Shown in pieces: positions 3 through 8,120 of a stretch of DNA of 9,585 nucleotides. The notes beneath the pieces are model-generated. The model was not told the origin of the DNA and made no database searches. It saw only the letters and a list, made by a program, of their open reading frames with translations. Position 1 is the stretch's first letter. The number at the start of each line of letters is the position of its first letter. Origin of the DNA: a bacterium (GTDB taxonomy: Bacteria; UBP7; UBA6624); assembly GCA_014384545.1 (NCBI GenBank), contig JACNFQ010000034.1, positions 1 to 9,585 on the forward strand, given 5' to 3'. A program made the translations under genes and the position numbers.

Positions 3-1277
3 CCTCAAAGAGCATGGCGGGGAACGGTAAGTGGTGTCCTCGTCGCTAGTGATGCCCTCCATCCAGCCGCATTACTTAGGAACATCAGACCCTTTTTGGC
101 AAAGGAAGCCTCTGTAGTCCTTGCTCGCCCTGATCGCTCTGGCGTCGACCCGGCATTCTTCCTCTCAGACCGACCCTCAAGGGATGCTCTTGAACGAGGT
201 ATTTCCTTCCATTCAGGAGGTCATCTTCCCGAAGACCTTGCCCATTTCTTGGGTCATTTAGCGGTTTTGGTTGCCCATGATACAGCTCGTCTACCTGGTT
301 TTACGTTAGGCACGGATGCCCTTGTATCCACTTTGGGTCTGCCGTCATCCCAAGGTGAAGATGTGCTCTCTCGATTGGAAGAGAGAGGGTGGGTGCGTTC
401 TGTTCGCCTCCATCACCTCCTTTCAGCATCACCAACAGGTCGCCTTGAAGTTTTAGGTGGTCCCAATCTCCAAGCTGAAGTGTCACGTCTTTGTGTCCCT
501 GTGGGTTGTACGTCGGCAAAGCGTATTCGCCTCAATTGCGAAGGTCGCGTTCTTCGCGAATTGGATGCATTCCAGGCAGCTACTTTTCTCCACCATGGGA
601 AAGAGATGCGTTGGGGAGATACTGTTTACCGTGTAACGGGACATCTCTCCCCTGCTCGTTCTGGCAATCTTGAGGTTGCGAGAGGTTATCGTGCTGAGAC
701 AGATACCACGGGTGGCGACTTGGGGCTGAATGTCACTCCTCTTATTGAATTGTCGGGTACAAAGTCTCTCCAAAGTGGTCCACCGATCCTTCCCTTTCCT
801 GATTCCCTTGAAGAAGGTCTGTCTGAAGAAGGTGAATCACTCCTCTTCTTACCCCTATTGGAAGGTGGTGTCGTCGCATTGCCTTCACTCGATGCATCTT
901 GGCTTTCTGCCCTTGCTGATTATGCAGGTGAAGTTTTCTTGGGTGATCTATCCCAGATGAGGAGATGGGTGGGGAAGAACCGCCGTGGACAGTTGGCACT
1001 CGTTCCGTTATCAGGCTCTATCACCGTGACGATTAAGGGGCACCGTTATAGACAAGCACGCTCCTCCGAAAGAGGCGAGCGCCAACTTCCCCAACCCTTA
1101 ACGTTCGAACGCGTTGGTCCCTTTACTGCACTCTGCAGCACATTGCCAACTGAAGCCAAGGCGGCGCTCTTCCTTGCTGCCAAGACTTTGCTACCCATTC
1201 AGTTTGAAGGGTTAAGGGATGTCCTCCTCTTCCATCACCACTCGTTAAAGGGGTTGAGTTGGCTGGAGCGAACATGA
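3..1277 (+). CDS. Partial protein resembling C-terminal region of YprA/Hrq1-type SF2 helicase
   Basis: The reading frame is open from the first bases of the window, so the 5' end lies upstream. The TTG at 96 is only an internal leucine codon, because protein-like sequence continues before it (QRAWRG then SGVLVASDALHP). That stretch resembles helicase motif VI followed by the VLVA strand of YprA/Hrq1/MrfA-type helicases. Further on, a winged-helix-like segment (DALVSTLGL then VLSRLEERGWV) and ATFLHHGKEMRWGDTVYRV (visible residues about 192-210) resemble the HPGAIYLHxGxxYxV region of the same family. The last 200 residues are not recognised. The usual C-terminal zinc-binding cysteine cluster of YprA is absent, and motif VI looks degenerate, so ATPase activity is uncertain. 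The helicase core, if present, would be upstream. The gene ends in an ATGA overlap with the next gene, implying cotranscription. The helicase assignment is inference from remembered family patterns; that the frame is a real gene is much surer. Confidence 0.6.
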   Translation, partial: PQRAWRGTVSGVLVASDALHPAALLRNIRPFLAKEASVVLARPDRSGVDPAFFLSDRPSRDALERGISFHSGGHLPEDLAHFLGHLAVLVAHDTARLPGFTLGTDALVSTLGLPSSQGEDVLSRLEERGWVRSVRLHHLLSASPTGRLEVLGGPNLQAEVSRLCVPVGCTSAKRIRLNCEGRVLRELDAFQAATFLHHGKEMRWGDTVYRVTGHLSPARSGNLEVARGYRAETDTTGGDLGLNVTPLIELSGTKSLQSGPPILPFPDSLEEGLSEEGESLLFLPLLEGGVVALPSLDASWLSALADYAGEVFLGDLSQMRRWVGKNRRGQLALVPLSGSITVTIKGHRYRQARSSERGERQLPQPLTFERVGPFTALCSTLPTEAKAALFLAAKTLLPIQFEGLRDVLLFHHHSLKGLSWLERT

Positions 1278-2551
1278 ACGTCGCAACCCTCATTCTTGCT
1301 CTACTTGCTAGGCTTGTTCTTCCCCTGCCCTCGGATGGGATCGAAGTCCATCTTTCCGTGGGTGGTTTCCCTCTAGAAGGGATCGAGGTATTTTGGGAGG
1401 GAACCGATAGCGAAGGTTTATTGGGTAAGTCCAATGCTGAAGGGTGGTTGGGATCTGGTCCACTCTCGCCTCAAAGGGGTCATCTCACTGCCGTTTGGGG
1501 CGAACAGCGCCTCGAGAAAGAGGTCGTTCTTCTTGCGGGAAAGGTAACATCCGTAGAGTTTGTCTTTGATTCAGAATCTCTCTTGGAAGTCGTCGTCCGT
1601 GGGTCTGGAGATCTACTTCCTCAGGCATATCTTCGTCTCGCACTCGCTGACGCTCAGTTTCTAGAAGGGACAACTTCGACCAACGGGGTGGTTCAATTCA
1701 TAACGCCCCCCGGTGAATATGTCCTAACGATTCACCATCCTGACTATGAAGAGCAGCGGGTAGAAATCACCCTTGGTTTCGGTACAAAGATCATTGAAGT
1801 TTGGATGTCGTCTTTACCCCTTTCCTCCTCTTTGGCTTCCCGCTTGCAGACCCTTCAAGGAAGGGGGTTGGAGGTCATCATTCTCTTTGATGCGACCCGC
1901 AGTATGGATGACTTGTTAGAAGGGACGCGGGCAGCGATTCTTGATATCGCCGCTGTCCTTGAGTCACTTGTGCCCGGCACGAAAATGGGTATTGGAGCTT
2001 ATCGCGCTCCTCAAAGTGCCTACACCGTTCACCCCAAGAGCAGAGACCTTCGCCTCCTCGATAAAGCAGGAGCGACCGATATTCTGCGGTTTCTTCGATC
2101 GGTTCGAGCTGACGAGGGAGGTAACGAATCGGTTTTGAAGGCTTTGGAATGGTCACTGGACAGCCGAAGGGGGTGGGGCGAGGACACGATGAAGGTCGTT
2201 ATCCTGATGGGGGACGCAAAACAGAAGGAGAAAAGTGTGAGGCAAATCGTTCAGACATTCATCCAATATGCTGAGCTCTTGGGGGGTGTCTCGTTCCACG
2301 CGATGGGAGCGAATTCTCTTGCTTCGGGTGAAGACATCGGGGAAGAGAGTGAAGGGCAATTCCGAGCACTCGCAACCGCCCTAGAAGGCACCTATCTCCC
2401 CTTACCCCTCGATCCTTCTAGGACTGAAGGAACTCTCCTCTTGTTGCGCTCATTGGTTGGCTTTGCTATCGGTCCGGAACATCAAGAGGAACTGAATCGT
2501 CTCTTGACGGCCGAATCTCTTGAGAGGATTAGGAGAGATAGGGGCTGGTGA
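1274..2551 (+). CDS. Exported von Willebrand factor A domain protein
   Basis: This 425-residue protein starts at ATG 1274, inside the previous stop (ATGA), with GGAG at 1265-1268 five bases upstream. An in-frame TTG at 1259 is possible but less likely. The N-terminus (MNVATLILALLARLVLPLP) is hydrophobic and looks like a signal peptide, although it lacks a basic n-region and has an arginine in the core. Residues about 20-185 are beta-rich with GEYVLTIHHPDYEEQ, like carboxypeptidase-regulatory or CNA-B-like sandwiches. A vWA domain follows from about residue 202: DATRSM gives the DxTxS MIDAS motif (D206, T208, S210), then MGIGAYR, and VVILMGDA (D314), as in the DTTGSM/GDAPPH class of vWA proteins. 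There is no second membrane helix, so it is probably periplasmic or outside the cell. It likely binds a protein partner through a metal ion. The next gene overlaps by four bases (GTGA). The ligand is unknown; the vWA call is firm and the export call moderate. Confidence 0.82.
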   Translation: MNVATLILALLARLVLPLPSDGIEVHLSVGGFPLEGIEVFWEGTDSEGLLGKSNAEGWLGSGPLSPQRGHLTAVWGEQRLEKEVVLLAGKVTSVEFVFDSESLLEVVVRGSGDLLPQAYLRLALADAQFLEGTTSTNGVVQFITPPGEYVLTIHHPDYEEQRVEITLGFGTKIIEVWMSSLPLSSSLASRLQTLQGRGLEVIILFDATRSMDDLLEGTRAAILDIAAVLESLVPGTKMGIGAYRAPQSAYTVHPKSRDLRLLDKAGATDILRFLRSVRADEGGNESVLKALEWSLDSRRGWGEDTMKVVILMGDAKQKEKSVRQIVQTFIQYAELLGGVSFHAMGANSLASGEDIGEESEGQFRALATALEGTYLPLPLDPSRTEGTLLLLRSLVGFAIGPEHQEELNRLLTAESLERIRRDRGW

Positions 2552-4518
2552 TTCTCTCCTTCTTTGCAGCCCTTACCCTATGGGGTGGAGGAGGTCCAGT
2601 GGTCCGTTCAGATCCCTGTCCTTCGGTTGCCCTTGATATCTTCCTCTTGGTTGATGTTTCGGGTTCTATGGGGGGAACTTGGAACACCTTAGCAAATGCG
2701 TTGGATCGGTTTTCAGCTGATTTGGGCCCCGATGACAACTTGACATTAGCCACCTTTTCCTTTGAAGGGAATTACCATCTTGTCCAACAAGTTCCAGGCA
2801 ATCAAGCCTCTTCCATCGTTGCGCATCTAAAGCAGTTGCAAGTTGATCCCAAGGTGGGTACCGACATTCTGGGCGCATTACGAGAAGCAGGCGCCACTTT
2901 AGGGGCAAGAACACACTCTTTTTCGGGAGGTAATGCTCGCGTTCCCATCCTTCTCGTTTTGACGGATGGACAAGATACAAACCCAGAAATCAATCGTGTA
3001 CTGGTGGAGACAGGCGTTGAGTTGTCAACCCACCAAACTGATGGGAACGAAGGGTTTAGCGGGGTCGTCCTTTACCAACCAACGGAAGCGACCTTTAGGG
3101 CGTGGGGAGATCTGTATGGAGCTGCTTTGGTGAATGACAAGGGTGAATATCCCCTTACCCTGTTTGCCCTCTTCGAGCACCCCATTATTGATGCCTCGGG
3201 TCGCCCCATTCCAGGAACCAATGATGTGCGTGGTCTCTATGACGAAGTCTCCCGGTTGCAGCCCGAACTCAATCTCCAAACGATCGATCTTCAGAGGGGG
3301 ATGACGCTTCCCATTGGCGTCATATGTGCTGTACCCTCCGTCTTAGACTTTGGGAACATCACAGGCAACCTCAGCGAACCCACAGAATTGCGCTTTGTGG
3401 TAAGAGGGCGTTCGGGTGCCATTCGCTTACCTTCACCCAGCGAGATTCGGATTCAATTGATGCCAGATCCCGAAATCGTAAGGAATGGGGCGGGCGTCAT
3501 TCTAGAGACGTCGGGCGGGAACGATGGCTCGCTATCATTGAGTCTTCGCTTGATGAATCCAGACAACTTGACACCAGATATCTATGATGGTGGCATGGCG
3601 ACCCTTGCCCTACCAGACCGAGAAGGAGAGATTATCTTCCTCATTCCCGACCGCATCCCCTACCGGTTTCGGACGGACCTGACACCTTCGATTTGCCAGA
3701 TGGAGAGTTTGGGCTCTTTCCAGGTTGAGAGGGGAGGAGCGATTGCAACGGGTCCATGGAGAGAAAGTAGTACCGTGATAGTAAGTTGTGAGGAAGCAGC
3801 GGGGAGTGAAGGGCTTTCGGTAAGGGCAGGGGGAATCCCTCCCCATGTCTCACTCGTCTTTGAAGATGGTTTCGGACAGGAGGTTGCCCGACTTGATGCC
3901 GATCGCCCGGAGGGACGGATTCCATCCTTAGGAGAGATTTCTGCCCACTTAGATTGGGGAAGGAGGGTGCGGTTTAGGGGTGAGATTTCACTCAGTTTTG
4001 TCTCTCCACGATCTAATGTGCAGTTCCATGTAAAAGGACCTGGTCTAGAGATTGACCGTAAAGGGGCAATCCTGACTTGGCAAGTGGTGAACATTCCCCC
4101 CTTGCCGTGGTGGGTTTTTGCCCTCATCGCTTTGGCAATAGTGCTTCTTCTTCTCTCTCTTCGAGCGACTTTTTCTCCCCGAGCCAAGATTCTATTTTCT
4201 GGGGGGCTAGTGGGTCGACCCAGTCGTGTATCGATCCACCCCCTTCTTTTTGGTTCGGCAACCTGTTCGTTAGTAAAGAAAAGTGATGGATCGGGAGCGA
4301 TAAAGCGGTGGGGGTCTCGAGGTCACATCGGTCGACTCGTAGCAACGAGGCAGGGTATCACCCTTATTTCCAAGAAAGGAGGGAGTCGCCATCCGGGGCG
4401 TCCTATCAAACCACGAAGTGGTGTCCCCTTGGTTGAGGGGACACAATACCGTATTGAAGATCTCTCTTTTTCCTATGAATCGGGGAAGAGGAGGAGAAGA
4501 AAGAAGAGGCAGAGATGA
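2548..4518 (+). CDS. Membrane-anchored vWA protein with cytoplasmic FHA-like tail
   Basis: A 656-residue protein starting at GTG 2548 in a GTGA overlap; AGGAGA at 2531-2536 could be its ribosome binding site. A short hydrophobic N-terminus (MILSFFAALTLWGGG) is a likely signal sequence. The vWA domain starts near residue 29 and has a complete MIDAS: DVSGSM (D36, S38, S40), T105 in VGTD, and D140 in LTDG. Beta-rich segments follow, one beginning SVLDFGNITG near residue 263, similar to the first strand of Ig/ASH-like modules. One transmembrane helix spans about 518-540 (PWWVFALIALAIVLLLLSL), placing the vWA part outside and about 115 residues in the cytoplasm. That tail has GSRGHIGRL (589-597), matching the SRxHARI pattern of FHA domains, then GGSRHPGRPI and EGTQYRIEDLSFSYE near the end, like the final FHA strands, but the NG dipeptide is replaced. 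It ends in a very basic cluster (KRRRRKKRQR). This suggests a transenvelope adhesion, assembly or sensing protein. The vWA and topology calls are strong; the FHA-like call is tentative. Confidence 0.85.
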   Translation: MILSFFAALTLWGGGGPVVRSDPCPSVALDIFLLVDVSGSMGGTWNTLANALDRFSADLGPDDNLTLATFSFEGNYHLVQQVPGNQASSIVAHLKQLQVDPKVGTDILGALREAGATLGARTHSFSGGNARVPILLVLTDGQDTNPEINRVLVETGVELSTHQTDGNEGFSGVVLYQPTEATFRAWGDLYGAALVNDKGEYPLTLFALFEHPIIDASGRPIPGTNDVRGLYDEVSRLQPELNLQTIDLQRGMTLPIGVICAVPSVLDFGNITGNLSEPTELRFVVRGRSGAIRLPSPSEIRIQLMPDPEIVRNGAGVILETSGGNDGSLSLSLRLMNPDNLTPDIYDGGMATLALPDREGEIIFLIPDRIPYRFRTDLTPSICQMESLGSFQVERGGAIATGPWRESSTVIVSCEEAAGSEGLSVRAGGIPPHVSLVFEDGFGQEVARLDADRPEGRIPSLGEISAHLDWGRRVRFRGEISLSFVSPRSNVQFHVKGPGLEIDRKGAILTWQVVNIPPLPWWVFALIALAIVLLLLSLRATFSPRAKILFSGGLVGRPSRVSIHPLLFGSATCSLVKKSDGSGAIKRWGSRGHIGRLVATRQGITLISKKGGSRHPGRPIKPRSGVPLVEGTQYRIEDLSFSYESGKRRRRKKRQR

Positions 4519-4787
4519 GCGAAAAACTCCCACCTGCATCTCCCAAGAAAGGTGATGCAGAGCCCCCCCATGAACGACTTTCTCTCTTGGAGCGTGAAGG
4601 TTTAATGGAGAGGATTGCTACATTGGAAAAGGACATTGAAACGCGGGATCAGCGGATTGAAAAGCTAGAACGAACGAGGCGTTCGGACCAATTGGGTGAC
4701 CACGCATGGTGGATCATTCCGGCGGGGTTTGTGCTCATCGTTCTTCTTGTGGTCGCTCTCTTCATCCAGAAACCACCCTGGGCATAA
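4515..4787 (+). CDS. Small coiled-coil protein with single C-terminal membrane helix
   Basis: A 90-residue protein starting at ATG 4515 in an ATGA overlap with the vWA-FHA-like gene; GAGG at 4506-4509 is a plausible ribosome binding site. The first 20 residues are proline-rich and polar. Residues about 21-59 are highly charged with a heptad-like spacing of I34, L37, I41, I48 and L51, so a coiled coil is likely. A transmembrane helix covers about 65-84 (WWIIPAGFVLIVLLVVALF), with a six-residue tail. Arginines on the N-terminal side (RTRR) argue that the coiled coil is cytoplasmic. No family is recognised. Being translationally coupled to the upstream membrane protein, it may pair with that protein's cytoplasmic tail or help oligomerise it; this is inference from context. 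It is the last gene of the plus-strand run. Confidence 0.78.
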   Translation: MSEKLPPASPKKGDAEPPHERLSLLEREGLMERIATLEKDIETRDQRIEKLERTRRSDQLGDHAWWIIPAGFVLIVLLVVALFIQKPPWA

Positions 4788-4857
4788 GAGGGATAGGGGT
4801 AAAGCAGGAAGAATCTGTTTGGGATGCTCTGACCTCAACAGATGTCAATCTCCCTCT
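4787..4857. terminator. Possible stem-loop in convergent spacer
   Basis: The 81-bp spacer between the small membrane protein gene and the oppositely oriented methyltransferase gene contains two nested inverted repeats. The inner pair is ATCTGTT (4813-4819) with AACAGAT (4837-4843). The outer pair is AGAGGGA (4787-4793) with TCCCTCT (4851-4857). Both arms are perfect over 7 bp. Placement between convergent genes suits a shared terminator, but there is no T tract after the stem on the plus strand and only a weak T-rich stretch on the minus strand. The call is therefore tentative. Confidence 0.25.
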
Positions 4858-4868
4858 GGAAATACAGA

Positions 4869-5432
4869 TTAGATGCCGCTCTTGTGGAGCAACGAGTAAA
4901 GAACAGCACTGGCACACAACGCCACATTGATACTATTCGTAATACCTCTTACAGGGAGCTCAACGATATGGGATGCCGCAGCCAAGACTCCATCTTCTAC
5001 GCCCCGTCTTTCGTGTCCGAAGACGGCTAGGAGAGGGAAGGGGGGGGTGTGGAGAGGCCATGGAGAAGCGTCTTCGGTCTGTTCATACGCCACGACAGAA
5101 AGTTCTAGACGCCTAGATTCATCAAGTGCTTCTGATGTGGAGGGGAAAAACCGCCAAGGCACCGTTTCTAACGAACCCCCTACCGCGGTTTTTTCAATCT
5201 GGTTGGTGGCGTGGATTGAGATGCCTGGATAGGGCGTAATGCCCGAAAGCCAAAGAGCTTTCACATTGATACAATCACAAAGTCGGAAGACAAGACCCAC
5301 ATTCTTTGCGCTCCTGACATTATCCAACAGAACCGTTACGGGCAACCGACTCTCTTCTCTCTCTTCGGGTAAAGGTCTTGATGCAATGAGGGCTGCCGTA
5401 GTGCGCCGCTTGAAGGGGTCTCTAGAAATCAG
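4869..5432 (-). CDS. SpoU/TrmH-family RNA 2'-O-methyltransferase
   Basis: This protein would methylate ribose 2'-OH groups in tRNA or rRNA using S-adenosylmethionine through a trefoil-knot SPOUT fold. Numbered from TTG 5345, motif 1 is DNVRSAKNVGLVFR (8-21), motif 2 is VFGHERRGV (108-116) and motif 3 is ELPVRGITNSINVALCASA (129-147), all characteristic of the family. ITPYPG and EKTAVGG match a subgroup with ITPxPP and KTALGA. The target RNA cannot be deduced. The start is uncertain. TTG 5345 gives 158 residues and begins directly at the first strand. The frame continues upstream through ISRDPFKRRTTAALIASRPL to a CTG at 5430-5432 that overlaps the nadA stop as CTGA, giving 187 residues. Family members usually carry some 30 residues before the first motif, so the longer form is given here, but no good ribosome binding site precedes the CTG, and an ATT at 5427-5429 is also possible. 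It is probably cotranscribed with nadA. Confidence 0.88.
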   Translation of the reverse strand: MISRDPFKRRTTAALIASRPLPEEREESRLPVTVLLDNVRSAKNVGLVFRLCDCINVKALWLSGITPYPGISIHATNQIEKTAVGGSLETVPWRFFPSTSEALDESRRLELSVVAYEQTEDASPWPLHTPPFPLLAVFGHERRGVEDGVLAAASHIVELPVRGITNSINVALCASAVLYSLLHKSGI

Positions 5433-6391
5433 ACCGTTACCGCAAGCATGCGATCAATCGCTGCTCTCGCCTTTGAGCGTGTCGGTTCTGGAACCGAGAC
5501 AACGGGAGCTCCTGCTTCAAGAACCTTCAAGACTTTCGGGAGGGTGACCATCTTCATAAACTGACAGACCATCTCTTCAGAAGCTGGAATGAAAACCTTA
5601 TGGGGGGCGGATTTTTTCAAAGGATGAAGGATGCCCGTTTCGGTCGCCACGATGAACTTTGTTCCGTCGCTCTCTTTGACATGCCGCACCATGCCCCCCG
5701 TTGAAGCGACAATCGGAGAAGAAGGGAGTTCTCCGACAGAATCAAGGTAGAGGCATTGTGTGGAACAACCACATTCAGGATGAATCAGAAACTCTGCTTT
5801 TGTATGTTCCACCATCAGAGATTTGATGCGGTCGGGTGGAAGGGTCGCATGGACATGGCACTCTCCAGGCCATATCTCCATTTTTCGCCCCGTAACCTCT
5901 TCTACCCACGCTCCCAAGAACATATCAGGCAAGAAGAGGATCTCTCTATCATGGGGCAGAGAAGAGACAATCTGGGCAGCATTGGCAGATGTGCAGCAGA
6001 TATCGGATTCCGCCTTGACATCTGCACTTGTATTGACATATGCTACGACCAATGCATCGGGGTGTTTCGCCTTCCAATCGCGTAATGCTGGAGCTGTAAT
6101 CATGTCCGCAAGGGAGCATCCAGCCCGCCGATCCGGAATCAAAACCGTTTGGTCAGCCCGCGTCAGAATCTCTGCCGTCTCTGCCATGAAGTGGACAGCA
6201 CAGAAGAGAATCAAGGGGTGGTCTGAAAGGGCAGCTTGCCTTGACAACCCCAAGGAATCTCCTACATAGTCAGCGATATCCTGAATCTCAGGACGGACAT
6301 AGTTATGAGCCAAAATCAAGATGTCCTTCTCTTTCTGGAGCTGCTTGATGCGCTCGACCATGGCACGAGGGCTGGTCATAGGTGGGGACAT
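5429..6391 (-). CDS. nadA: Quinolinate synthase NadA
   Basis: NadA condenses iminoaspartate with dihydroxyacetone phosphate to form quinolinate in de novo NAD synthesis, in the cytoplasm, using a [4Fe-4S] cluster. The 320-residue protein has the hallmark HNYVRPEIQDIADYVGDSLG (29-48), FCAVHFMAETAE (63-74) and YVNTSADVKA with CCTSANA (118-138). By alignment with the E. coli and Thermotoga enzymes, the three cluster cysteines are C92 (AGCSLADM), C178 (PGECHVHA) and C276 (EMVCQFMK), with the expected spacing. HPECGCS (204-210) is also present. All catalytic elements are intact. Three in-frame ATGs compete: 6391, 6379 and 6361. The last gives MVERIKQLQKEKD, matching where Thermotoga NadA begins, but none has a strong ribosome binding site. 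It is followed by the methyltransferase gene and diverges from the DUF456-like gene across about 35 bp. Confidence 0.97.
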   Translation of the reverse strand: MSPPMTSPRAMVERIKQLQKEKDILILAHNYVRPEIQDIADYVGDSLGLSRQAALSDHPLILFCAVHFMAETAEILTRADQTVLIPDRRAGCSLADMITAPALRDWKAKHPDALVVAYVNTSADVKAESDICCTSANAAQIVSSLPHDREILFLPDMFLGAWVEEVTGRKMEIWPGECHVHATLPPDRIKSLMVEHTKAEFLIHPECGCSTQCLYLDSVGELPSSPIVASTGGMVRHVKESDGTKFIVATETGILHPLKKSAPHKVFIPASEEMVCQFMKMVTLPKVLKVLEAGAPVVSVPEPTRSKARAAIDRMLAVTV

Positions 6392-6396
6392 TCTAC

Positions 6397-6443
6397 CAAG
6401 AATCTACCATCCCCCCCTAGGATAACGTGTATGGAGATTCTTG
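6397..6443. promoter_or_regulatory. 9-bp inverted repeat flanking divergent start region, possible operator
   Basis: CAAGAATCT at 6397-6405 and AGATTCTTG at 6435-6443 are perfect reverse complements, centred at 6420 in the gap between nadA and the divergent DUF456-arsR pair. The right arm lies in the first codons of the DUF456-like gene, and the left arm just upstream of the nadA ATG at 6391. A dyad here could be bound by a regulator controlling both directions, the adjacent ArsR-type protein being the obvious candidate. The arms are 29 bp apart, unlike the closely spaced dyads usual for ArsR proteins, so the assignment is speculative. Confidence 0.3.
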
Positions 6444-6448
6444 CTCAA
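6419..6448 (-). promoter_or_regulatory. Candidate sigma-70-type promoter for nadA
   Basis: Reading the minus strand, TTGAGC (complement of 6443-6448) and TATCCT (complement of 6419-6424) are separated by 18 bases and each matches the sigma-70 consensus at four of six positions. Transcription would begin near 6412, leaving a leader of about 20 bases before the ATG at 6391. The -10 lies between the arms of the inverted repeat and the -35 touches its right arm. On the plus strand the same AGGATA forms the likely ribosome binding site of the divergent gene. This is pattern matching only. Confidence 0.25.
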
Positions 6449-6927
6449 TGCACGGTGCCCTAAGAGTCATCCTTGTCGTCTTGGGAAGTGGGGCATGGTT
6501 GGTCACACCTCTCCCTTTGATTCCTGCTATGGAAGCTCTCTTAGCTCTTGTCCTCTGGGCTTGGCTTGCTGCAGGTCGCCCTTTCGGATGGATTCCCCCT
6601 CTATTTGCACTGGTGATTTGGGCACTCACTGCGTGGGTAGAACACTTGGTTAGGAAGGGGTCATTAGAACGCGCTGGTGCCCGAAAAGGGAGCGCCGTCG
6701 TTGCCTTGCTGGGTGCGATTGTGGGGGTGATGGTATGGGGACCTTGGGGGTTGCCACTAGGTGTCTTTGTGGGAGCTTTTCTTTGGGAGATGTGGGGAGG
6801 TGGTGATGGGAAGAAGAGTTTGGCTTCTGGCAAAGCTGCCCTACTAGGCGTATTAGCGAGTGGAGCAGGACGATTTGCTATGGGGGCTCTTCTCTTGGGT
6901 GAAATCATCCTCTTAGTAATCCTGTGA
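6427..6927 (+). CDS. DUF456-like integral membrane protein
   Basis: A 166-residue, very hydrophobic protein with about five predicted membrane stretches: residues 11-29, 33-49, 56-74, 88-122 (glycine-rich, possibly a hairpin) and 137-166. GARKGSAVVALLGAIVG followed by GPWGLPLGVFVGAFLWEM and a second GKAALLGVLASGAGRF segment is the arrangement seen in the DUF456 family of small bacterial membrane proteins. The biochemical function of that family is not established to my knowledge. The start could be GTG 6427, with AGGA at 6419-6422, or ATG 6448, with GGAG at 6433-6436; the longer form is given. It overlaps the ArsR-type gene by GTGA, so the two are coupled, and it diverges from nadA. A transporter or stress role under ArsR control is possible but only inferred from the neighbour. 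Confidence 0.8.
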   Translation: MYGDSCSMHGALRVILVVLGSGAWLVTPLPLIPAMEALLALVLWAWLAAGRPFGWIPPLFALVIWALTAWVEHLVRKGSLERAGARKGSAVVALLGAIVGVMVWGPWGLPLGVFVGAFLWEMWGGGDGKKSLASGKAALLGVLASGAGRFAMGALLLGEIILLVIL

Positions 6928-7280
6928 GGATCAGCAAAGAGTTTATTGAAGGGGACCGGTTGTTGTCGTTGATGGGCGAACCGAATCGCTTCAAGATTCT
7001 TTCGCTCCTCCACAAAGAGCTCGTTCTTTGTGTCTCTGATGTGGCAAAGAGAGTTGACCTGTCCGTTGCCAATACGAGCCACCATTTGCAGGTGATGGAA
7101 GAAGAGGGTTTGGTTTCGTGTGAGCCTGATGGCAGGTGTCGCCTTTACAGGATTGTCCATCCCTTGGTAGGAGATATTCTCCAAAGGGCAACGACTCCCT
7201 CCCGTCTCCATCTCCCCGACACGTTTCCAAAGGGTGGCGGTTCTATCCCGTCGCCGTATCGGGGGAGGGATGGAACCTAA
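6924..7280 (+). CDS. ArsR/SmtB-family winged-helix transcriptional regulator
   Basis: A 118-residue DNA-binding protein starting at GTG 6924 in a GTGA overlap with the membrane protein gene. LMGEPNRFKILSLL (16-29), CVSDVAKRVDLSVANTSHHL (36-55) and VMEEEGLVSCEPDGRCRLYR (57-76) form the helix-turn-helix and wing typical of ArsR proteins. C36 falls where SmtB/ArsR members have the cysteine of the ELCV(C/G)D motif, but the second cysteine of the ArsR-type CVC is serine here. Two further cysteines sit in or near the wing (C66, C72). The alpha-5 metal site of SmtB is not evident. The signal may be a metal, a thiol-reactive or redox cue, or something else. The tail after residue 90 (TTPSRLHLPDTFPKGG onward) is low in helix-forming character and unrecognised. 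Its TAA directly abuts the nadC stop. It probably represses its own cassette and perhaps nadA. Confidence 0.9.
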   Translation: MRISKEFIEGDRLLSLMGEPNRFKILSLLHKELVLCVSDVAKRVDLSVANTSHHLQVMEEEGLVSCEPDGRCRLYRIVHPLVGDILQRATTPSRLHLPDTFPKGGGSIPSPYRGRDGT

Positions 7281-8120
7281 TCAGGATGTGCTAGAGAAAG
7301 GCTCTATCTGAAAAGAGAGGTCAATCGGTGGTGCCGAAGAGGTAAGTGCTCCTGACGAAATGCCATCAGGACCCAGAGCAGCCCATCGACGGAGGGACGC
7401 CCGTTGCACCCCTCCAGAGAGTTCCACATACACACCTTTCTCTTGGGCAAGTCGAATCCCTTCAGCCAAGTTCTCCTCGTCCCAGTCATCAAGCATGACC
7501 CGTTTGATCTCCAAATCCAACGCTTCAATCAGTTCCTCCACCGTTTCTACTTCCACTTCGATATCGACACCAGGATGAACTTCCCTAATCGCCCAAACAG
7601 CGGCTGTTATTCCCCCGACAAGACGGTGGTGGTTTTCCTTGAGCAAGACCATTTCTCCCAAGTCGTTTCGGTGGTTGACACCCCCCCCAGCTAGGACGGC
7701 GTCCTTGTCCAACCAGCGCAATCCAGGAGCTGTCTTTCTCGTATCAAGCAACTCCACACTTGGATCGTTCATCTCTTCCACCCATTGAGCCGTGCGGGTG
7801 GCGATCCCACACGCTCGCCCAAGTAGGTTCATCGCTACGCGTTCCCCTGAAAGCAACGCAGGAGCTAAGGCAATGACTTCCAATACAGTATCCCCACACT
7901 GAAAAGCATCTCCCTCACCAAGCCCTCCAGCTTGGACAGAACGGTCTAGGAGCGAGAATACTTGGGTGGCCCCACGCATTCCACTCGCGCGCCCTCCCTC
8001 CTTTGCCACCACACGCCCCCGTGCCTTCTCCTCCAGCCCCAAAGGCTGAGTCGTGATGTCACCAAAAGCACCATCCTCAGCTAGGAATGTCGCCAGCAAT
8101 GCTTGGAGATTCGGTTTCAG
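7281..8120 (-). CDS. nadC: Nicotinate-nucleotide pyrophosphorylase (quinolinate phosphoribosyltransferase) NadC
   Basis: NadC converts quinolinate and PRPP into nicotinate mononucleotide, CO2 and pyrophosphate, the step after NadA. From the CTG at 8118-8120 the protein has 279 residues, normal for the family. Conserved blocks are AEDGAFGDITT (14-24), LLDTRKTAPGLR (124-135), AGGGVNHRNDLGEMVLLKEN (144-163), IEVEVET (187-193), VMLDD (208-212), VELSGGV (232-238) and ISSGALTSSAPPIDLS (254-269). The usual ALTHS histidine is serine here. A conventional start would be TTG 8099, which has no ribosome binding site and truncates the first helix. The CTG at 8120 overlaps the folK stop as CTGA, is preceded by GAGGGGG with a 7-base spacer, and restores MKPNLQALLATFLAED, which aligns with the Thermotoga enzyme's start. 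nadC is the last gene of the glyA-folK-nadC run, and its stop touches that of the convergent arsR-type gene. Confidence 0.96.
   Translation of the reverse strand: MKPNLQALLATFLAEDGAFGDITTQPLGLEEKARGRVVAKEGGRASGMRGATQVFSLLDRSVQAGGLGEGDAFQCGDTVLEVIALAPALLSGERVAMNLLGRACGIATRTAQWVEEMNDPSVELLDTRKTAPGLRWLDKDAVLAGGGVNHRNDLGEMVLLKENHHRLVGGITAAVWAIREVHPGVDIEVEVETVEELIEALDLEIKRVMLDDWDEENLAEGIRLAQEKGVYVELSGGVQRASLRRWAALGPDGISSGALTSSAPPIDLSFQIEPFSSTS

Follow-up and report, generated by a model that had tools for sequence, protein, structure and literature searches.

A four-gene run encoding two vWA proteins as the probable 3' half of a bacterial tubulin operon

Background

Operons that combine FtsZl1, a protein of the Tubulin_2 type, with vWA proteins have been predicted to be membrane-remodelling systems (Makarova & Koonin 2010, PMC2875224), with transport or signalling put forward as an alternative role by a reviewer of the same article. 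Tubulin systems containing two vWA proteins along with GTPases have been predicted to act in biological conflict (Kaur et al. 2020, PMC7159879), and secreted proteins composed of Ig and vWA domains occur in MoxR-linked archaeal loci (PMC5898192). FtsZl1/Tubulin_2-vWA loci are widespread, and the literature found offers only predictions of their role, either membrane remodelling or biological conflict. The locus described here suggests a variant with a duplicated membrane-anchored vWA protein (vWA-TM), a secreted vWA protein and possibly a nucleic-acid component, which would bear on the choice between these two roles.

The DNA analysed, referred to as the window, is a whole contig of 9585 bp (C104) from a genome bin of 1.39 Mb that is 79% complete. 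The host lineage is deep-branching, uncultured and nearly unsampled: the relatives compared include two genomes from its own family, and the rest share only the domain.

Organisation of the four-gene run and its surroundings

The window contains four co-directional genes (Table 1), which a preliminary description, made from the sequence alone, had interpreted as encoding a helicase-like protein, two vWA proteins with different MIDAS types and a small coiled-coil membrane protein, tied together by three stop/start overlaps. These 4-base overlaps are present as claimed, and are by themselves ordinary for bacterial operons.

Table 1. Locations and descriptions of the features discussed in the text. 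Positions refer to the window (C104) unless another contig is named.
Feature	Location	Strand	Description
Gene 1	3-1277	+	Last 424 aa of a longer, cytoplasmic protein; open frame with no upstream stop
Overlap of genes 1 and 2	1274-1277		ATGA
Gene 2	1274-2551	+	Two beta domains (CarboxypepD_reg-like, aa 107-168), then vWA domain (aa ~198-331), MIDAS DATRSM
Overlap of genes 2 and 3	2548-2551		GTGA
Gene 3	2548-4518	+	vWA domain (aa ~28-155), MIDAS DVSGSM; beta domain with PSVLDFGN motif; TM helix (aa 522-541); cytoplasmic beta domain; polybasic tail
Polybasic tail of gene 3	4455-4515		GKRRRRKKRQR
Overlap of genes 3 and 4	4515-4518		ATGA
Gene 4	4515-4787	+	Tail-anchored protein of 90 aa; N-terminal coiled coil and C-terminal TM, from sequence
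DUF456/ArsR gene pair	6427-7280		DUF456 membrane protein gene and ArsR-type regulator gene with a 4-base overlap
Gene 3 paralogue	C8, 1-471		3' end of a second vWA-TM-type gene
Match to gene 3	C8, 67-426		Covers TM and cytoplasmic part
Polybasic tail of paralogue	C8 (L014), 430-468		SRGRRRRV
Last ORF of C8	C8 (L014, G000:C8), 7256-7696		GTGK P-loop-like motif; cut by contig end
vWA-TM/Tubulin_2 pair and neighbours	L018 (G027:C80), 818-5627 and 8789-13054		Pair near a 1112-aa P-loop helicase-like protein and a RecB-like nuclease-type protein

The product of gene 2 is probably exported. Its profile matches, to PF13620 (CarboxypepD_reg, E = 1.7e-4), PF24909 (vWA_SIBA-E, 0.0028) and PF00092 (VWA, 0.16), all lie under the curated cut-offs, and are consistent with the presence of a vWA domain. 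That of gene 3 is significant, matching PF13519 at 8.6e-10, over the cut-off, and PF00092 at 1.3e-5. The AF2 model of gene 3 is confident for the vWA domain and TM helix only; this helix is the one confident membrane-spanning segment and is followed by a basic cytoplasmic tail, bearing out the earlier claim that the second vWA protein crosses the membrane. A Foldseek search using the model returned vWA/integrin-I domains and left the C-terminal domain uninformed. Profile searches with gene 4 gave weak coiled-coil matches only. Hence the reading of genes 2 to 4 as encoding two vWA proteins, differing in MIDAS type, and a small coiled-coil membrane protein is upheld.

The same is not true of the helicase assignment for gene 1. 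No significant match came from Pfam, NCBIfam, PADLOC, PHROGs or PDB; no Pfam helicase match, whether to Helicase_C or DEAD, appeared up to E = 10, and the sole Pfam match was to TrmB (E = 0.08), at a winged-helix-like stretch near residues 104-134. When inspected by eye, the N-terminal part resembles the latter half of an SF2 helicase with a winged helix after it, and from motifs read in this way gene 1 may represent the C-terminal part of a degenerate SF2 helicase of the Ski2/MrfA-like kind. We treat this as unproven because a profile of 22 MrfA/Hrq1-type (WHD_HRQ1) proteins matched gene 1 at the level of shuffled sequence (18 of 60 shuffles were equally good); a functional link between the helicase-like gene and the vWA genes is likewise unproven. 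A structure model of gene 1 had a pLDDT of 33 and was unusable. As the window is a complete contig, the gene is truncated by the assembly.

Downstream of gene 4 lie trmH, nadA, DUF456, arsR, nadC, folK and glyA, all housekeeping or otherwise ordinary genes. No terminator was found on the + strand 3' of gene 4, a search of Rfam gave no match and a search for long repeats revealed nothing notable. In the nearest relative compared (G001), a syntenic glyA-folK-nadC-DUF456-nadA-trmH block is present without adjoining vWA genes, and a Tubulin_2 gene was found neither in this genome nor in G002. There, trmH is followed by LysM and aminopeptidase genes, both of which are found on a different contig of the host (C64), beside a different gene; hence the vWA system sits at a break in synteny. 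The DUF456 gene of G001 also has no adjoining ArsR gene, the two overlapping in the window.

A paralogue of gene 3 precedes a tubulin-like gene

Searching the host genome with gene 3 identified one other place, on contig C8 (E = 1.6e-6; 30% identity by blastp). This is the only paralogue of gene 3 in the genome; its N-terminal part, including the expected vWA site, is off the contig, and it ends one base into the start of a gene encoding a 1062 aa Tubulin_2/FtsZl1 protein (PF13809, E = 4.1e-36). Next come genes for membrane proteins of 759 aa and 447 aa and an ORF cut by the end of the contig, the successive junctions being TGATG, a 10 bp gap, ATGA and ATGA, a packing as tight as that in the window. 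Together, C8 and C104 encode three vWA-type proteins, the one on C8 being counted by the paralogy of its C-terminus. Both it and gene 3 end in polybasic tails, at which a cytoplasmic partner may dock.

The truncated ORF at the 3' end of C8 has a weak match to DEAD (E = 0.1, below cut-off). Its match to SulA (E = 0.003), also below cut-off, is the better of the two; SulA is an inhibitor of FtsZ, and a link with a tubulin-like neighbour would for this reason be curious. The Walker A motif reads GTGKR, ending in GKR and not GK[ST].

Tubulin-adjacent vWA proteins in other genomes

A scan of the genomes of 84,980 species (GTDB) with a Tubulin_2 alignment yielded 80 loci, weighted towards Cyanobacteria and Bacillota. 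A gene for a vWA protein with a DxSxS motif was directly upstream of the tubulin gene in 55 of the 77 testable loci, as counted by regular expression. In the loci inspected, which come from Thermaceae, Bacillota and one uncultured bacterium (L074), the vWA proteins measure around 580-670 aa and usually have one TM near residue 455-512. Gene 3 shares this architecture, combining a MIDAS of the DxSxS form with a membrane anchor as do the vWA proteins of FtsZl1 operons.

The likeness extends beyond the vWA domain in one of the two groups compared. Gene 3 aligned with the Thermaceae tubulin-partner vWA proteins over residues 33-374 (hhalign, E = 1e-8), and the region following the vWA domain, when used alone, still matched this group with an E value of 2e-5 and a score of 46, against a best score of 24 in 40 shuffles, none of which equalled it. 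Against the Bacillota (Firmicutes) group the same region gave no match, 36 of 40 shuffles being equally good. The similarity to the Thermaceae proteins thus exceeds that of vWA domains in general, and gene 3 can be assigned by its sequence to the FtsZl1-partner type of vWA protein. The preliminary description had known of no named system with this set of genes, a gap that is now filled in large part: proteins of the gene 3 type are the regular upstream neighbours of FtsZl1/Tubulin_2 in the collected loci and in published ones (PMC2875224, PMC7159879), and gene 3's own paralogue is such a neighbour too.

The other members of the run are more isolated. Gene 2 showed no similarity to the profiles of tubulin-partner vWA proteins, and genes 1, 2 and 4 had neither a detectable counterpart in the collected Tubulin_2 loci nor relatives in the collections searched. 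SF2-helicase-like ORFs were found by motif near FtsZl1 in three of the 77 loci, with no recurrence beside FtsZl1 elsewhere, and the genes downstream of the tubulin gene could not be aligned between C8, Thermaceae and Firmicutes. In a set of 60 genomes gene 1 matched only itself, and gene 3 only C8 and generic vWA proteins; no sequence relatives of genes 1 to 3 were found in viral contigs or plasmids. None of the other genomes searched contained the four genes together, a recurrence that the preliminary description had named as support for a system.

Relationship between the two contigs

A single operon of at least eight genes probably has its 5' half on C8 and its 3' half in the window, because C8 ends inside the ORF with the weak DEAD match and gene 1 is already open at the start of the window, on a strand and side compatible with a join. 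Visual inspection suggests that the C8 fragment corresponds to an SF2 N-terminus as far as about motif II, and gene 1 as the sequence from around motif IV on; these ranges being successive, the two fragments do not overlap and, with a gap estimated at about 300 bp, would make up a protein of ordinary helicase length. The codon usage of the C8 block differs from that of the window block by a JS value of 0.0147, compared with 0.0199 and 0.0189 against neighbouring housekeeping genes. No shared sequence was found at the ends of the two contigs, hence the join is not proven.

This missing physical link would be expected if the window were instead a second, stand-alone vWA locus, duplicated from the tubulin locus and now acting separately from it, perhaps in adhesion or assembly at the cell surface. 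On C8 the tubulin gene is already preceded directly by a vWA-TM gene, and both the dissimilarity of gene 2 from the tubulin partners and the unmatched status of genes 1, 2 and 4 among FtsZl1 loci would fit such an arrangement. We nevertheless consider it rather unlikely, given that both contigs end within ORFs in an orientation suited to a join, that the same pair of paralogues is involved and that codon usage is similar; moreover, there are precedents for a tubulin operon with two vWA genes both in the published systems (PMC7159879) and in the loci collected here.

Defence genes around the Thermaceae loci

In Thermaceae, brxL follows the vWA-TM gene, the Tubulin_2 gene and a gene for a hypothetical protein of around 680 aa in all six loci with downstream sequence (L021, L023, L024, L026, L029 and L032, of which L023 and L032 represent one species). 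The vWA-tubulin genes are found on megaplasmids with BrxL, helicase-annotated, DUF1156 and Swt1-HEPN genes, several of them in defence-island surroundings; no paper pairing BrxL with tubulin in such a context was found in the literature searched. Through these loci the window system may have a link to phage defence, albeit an indirect one, and the likeness of gene 3 to the brxL-linked version points to organisms in which the system could be tested. Elsewhere, the helicase-like and nuclease-type genes near the vWA-TM/Tubulin_2 pair of locus L018 are possibly another context of a defence type.

By analogy with the helicase-bearing islands around the Thermaceae module, the window could itself belong to an operon for defence against phages, with gene 1 encoding a helicase active on nucleic acids. 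The related tubulin/vWA systems predicted to act in conflict (PMC7159879) lend this some plausibility, as does the absence of the block from the syntenic place in G001. Set against it are the PADLOC results for nine proteins, in which the only match was a coiled-coil one at 0.019, the form of the Walker A motif at the 3' end of C8, and the lack of helicase motifs recognisable by profile in gene 1; we therefore regard an active helicase in a defence operon as unlikely.

A proposed mechanism

We put at roughly 60% the probability that genes 1 to 4 are the 3' half of the tubulin operon begun on C8 and that this operon works along the following lines. The order of genes would be a first vWA-TM protein, Tubulin_2/FtsZl1, the 759 aa and 447 aa membrane proteins, a P-loop/helicase-like protein formed by the 3' end of C8 and gene 1, the secreted Ig/vWA protein (gene 2), a second vWA-TM protein (gene 3) and, last, the tail-anchored coiled coil of gene 4. 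The metal-dependent MIDAS sites of both vWA-TM proteins and of the secreted vWA protein would serve to bind either ligands outside the cytoplasm or one another; the ligand signal would then pass along the single TM helix to the cytoplasmic beta domain and basic tail, and from there to the tubulin-like NTPase. The NTPase could assemble at the membrane along with the coiled-coil anchor and both membrane proteins, all three of which would be structural, the output being either remodelling of the envelope or membrane or a threshold-triggered response to an attacker. The direction in which the signal travels and its biological outcome are inferred from the architecture and from published proposals.

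The preliminary description had envisaged a transenvelope complex with an extracytoplasmic adhesion or assembly face and a cytoplasmic signalling face. A membrane-spanning complex with an outer face of vWA domains and a cytoplasmic face fits the architecture of gene 3 and its relatives; the earlier interpretation as a whole is partly supported. A more speculative extension, which we consider doubtful, is that the operon of at least eight genes, with its tubulin-like NTPase, its three vWA proteins and a helicase-like protein that is degenerate and has probably lost catalytic activity, might form a sensor across the membrane, in which a tubulin-family scaffold couples a ligand outside the cytoplasm to the recognition of nucleic acids within it.

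Comparison with known systems

Tandem vWA proteins are a feature shared with Bat and MoxR-vWA operons, and the window could in principle be an operon of the Bat/MoxR or arCOG01314 type from which the MoxR ATPase has been lost or moved. Ig-like domains accompany the vWA domains here, and the secreted Ig+vWA proteins of MoxR-linked archaeal loci (PMC5898192) are comparable. However, as had been observed from the sequence, the locus lacks MoxR: the genome's sole strong AAA_3 match lies elsewhere, on contig C90, where the next ORF reads as a DUF58-type partner. Since gene 3 also matches the tubulin-partner family outside its vWA domain, we consider an operon of either type very improbable.

The conflict systems of the GAP1-N2/DO-GTPase kind (PMC7159879) combine a tubulin with two vWA proteins, one of them membrane-bound and having a beta-rich domain, a combination that the present system would share if C8 and C104 form one operon. 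Unlike in those systems, the second vWA protein here is without a multi-TM part, and a helicase-like component has not been described for them. In the 79%-complete host genome there was no match to GAP1-N2 (PF20013) at E <= 1, and DO-GTPase searches gave only P-loop background matches, none over the cut-off; a DO-GTPase is present in one of the Bacillota loci collected (L044).

With the Thermaceae module, composed of vWA, tubulin, hypothetical protein and BrxL, gene 3 aligns over the vWA domain and the LD(F/L)GN domain that follows it; in contrast to that module, in which BrxL comes next, neither the window nor C8 showed a BrxL. The FtsZl1-vWA loci (PMC2875224) have in common with C8 a vWA protein with a signal or TM encoded directly upstream of a Tubulin_2 protein with a long C-terminal extension, and share with this system the variable, lineage-specific membrane proteins alongside and an intact MIDAS. 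They differ in that no kinase, OmpA or GTPase is seen here and the tubulin gene lies outside the window, on C8; a join of the contigs would further set the system apart by its pair of vWA-TM genes, along with the secreted Ig/vWA protein, the P-loop/helicase-like protein and the tail-anchored coiled coil. Given that there is no GAP1-N2, no convincing DO-GTPase and a MoxR only on another contig, the window system is, as far as tested, a variant of the FtsZl1-vWA kind rather than a member of the GTPase-centred class.
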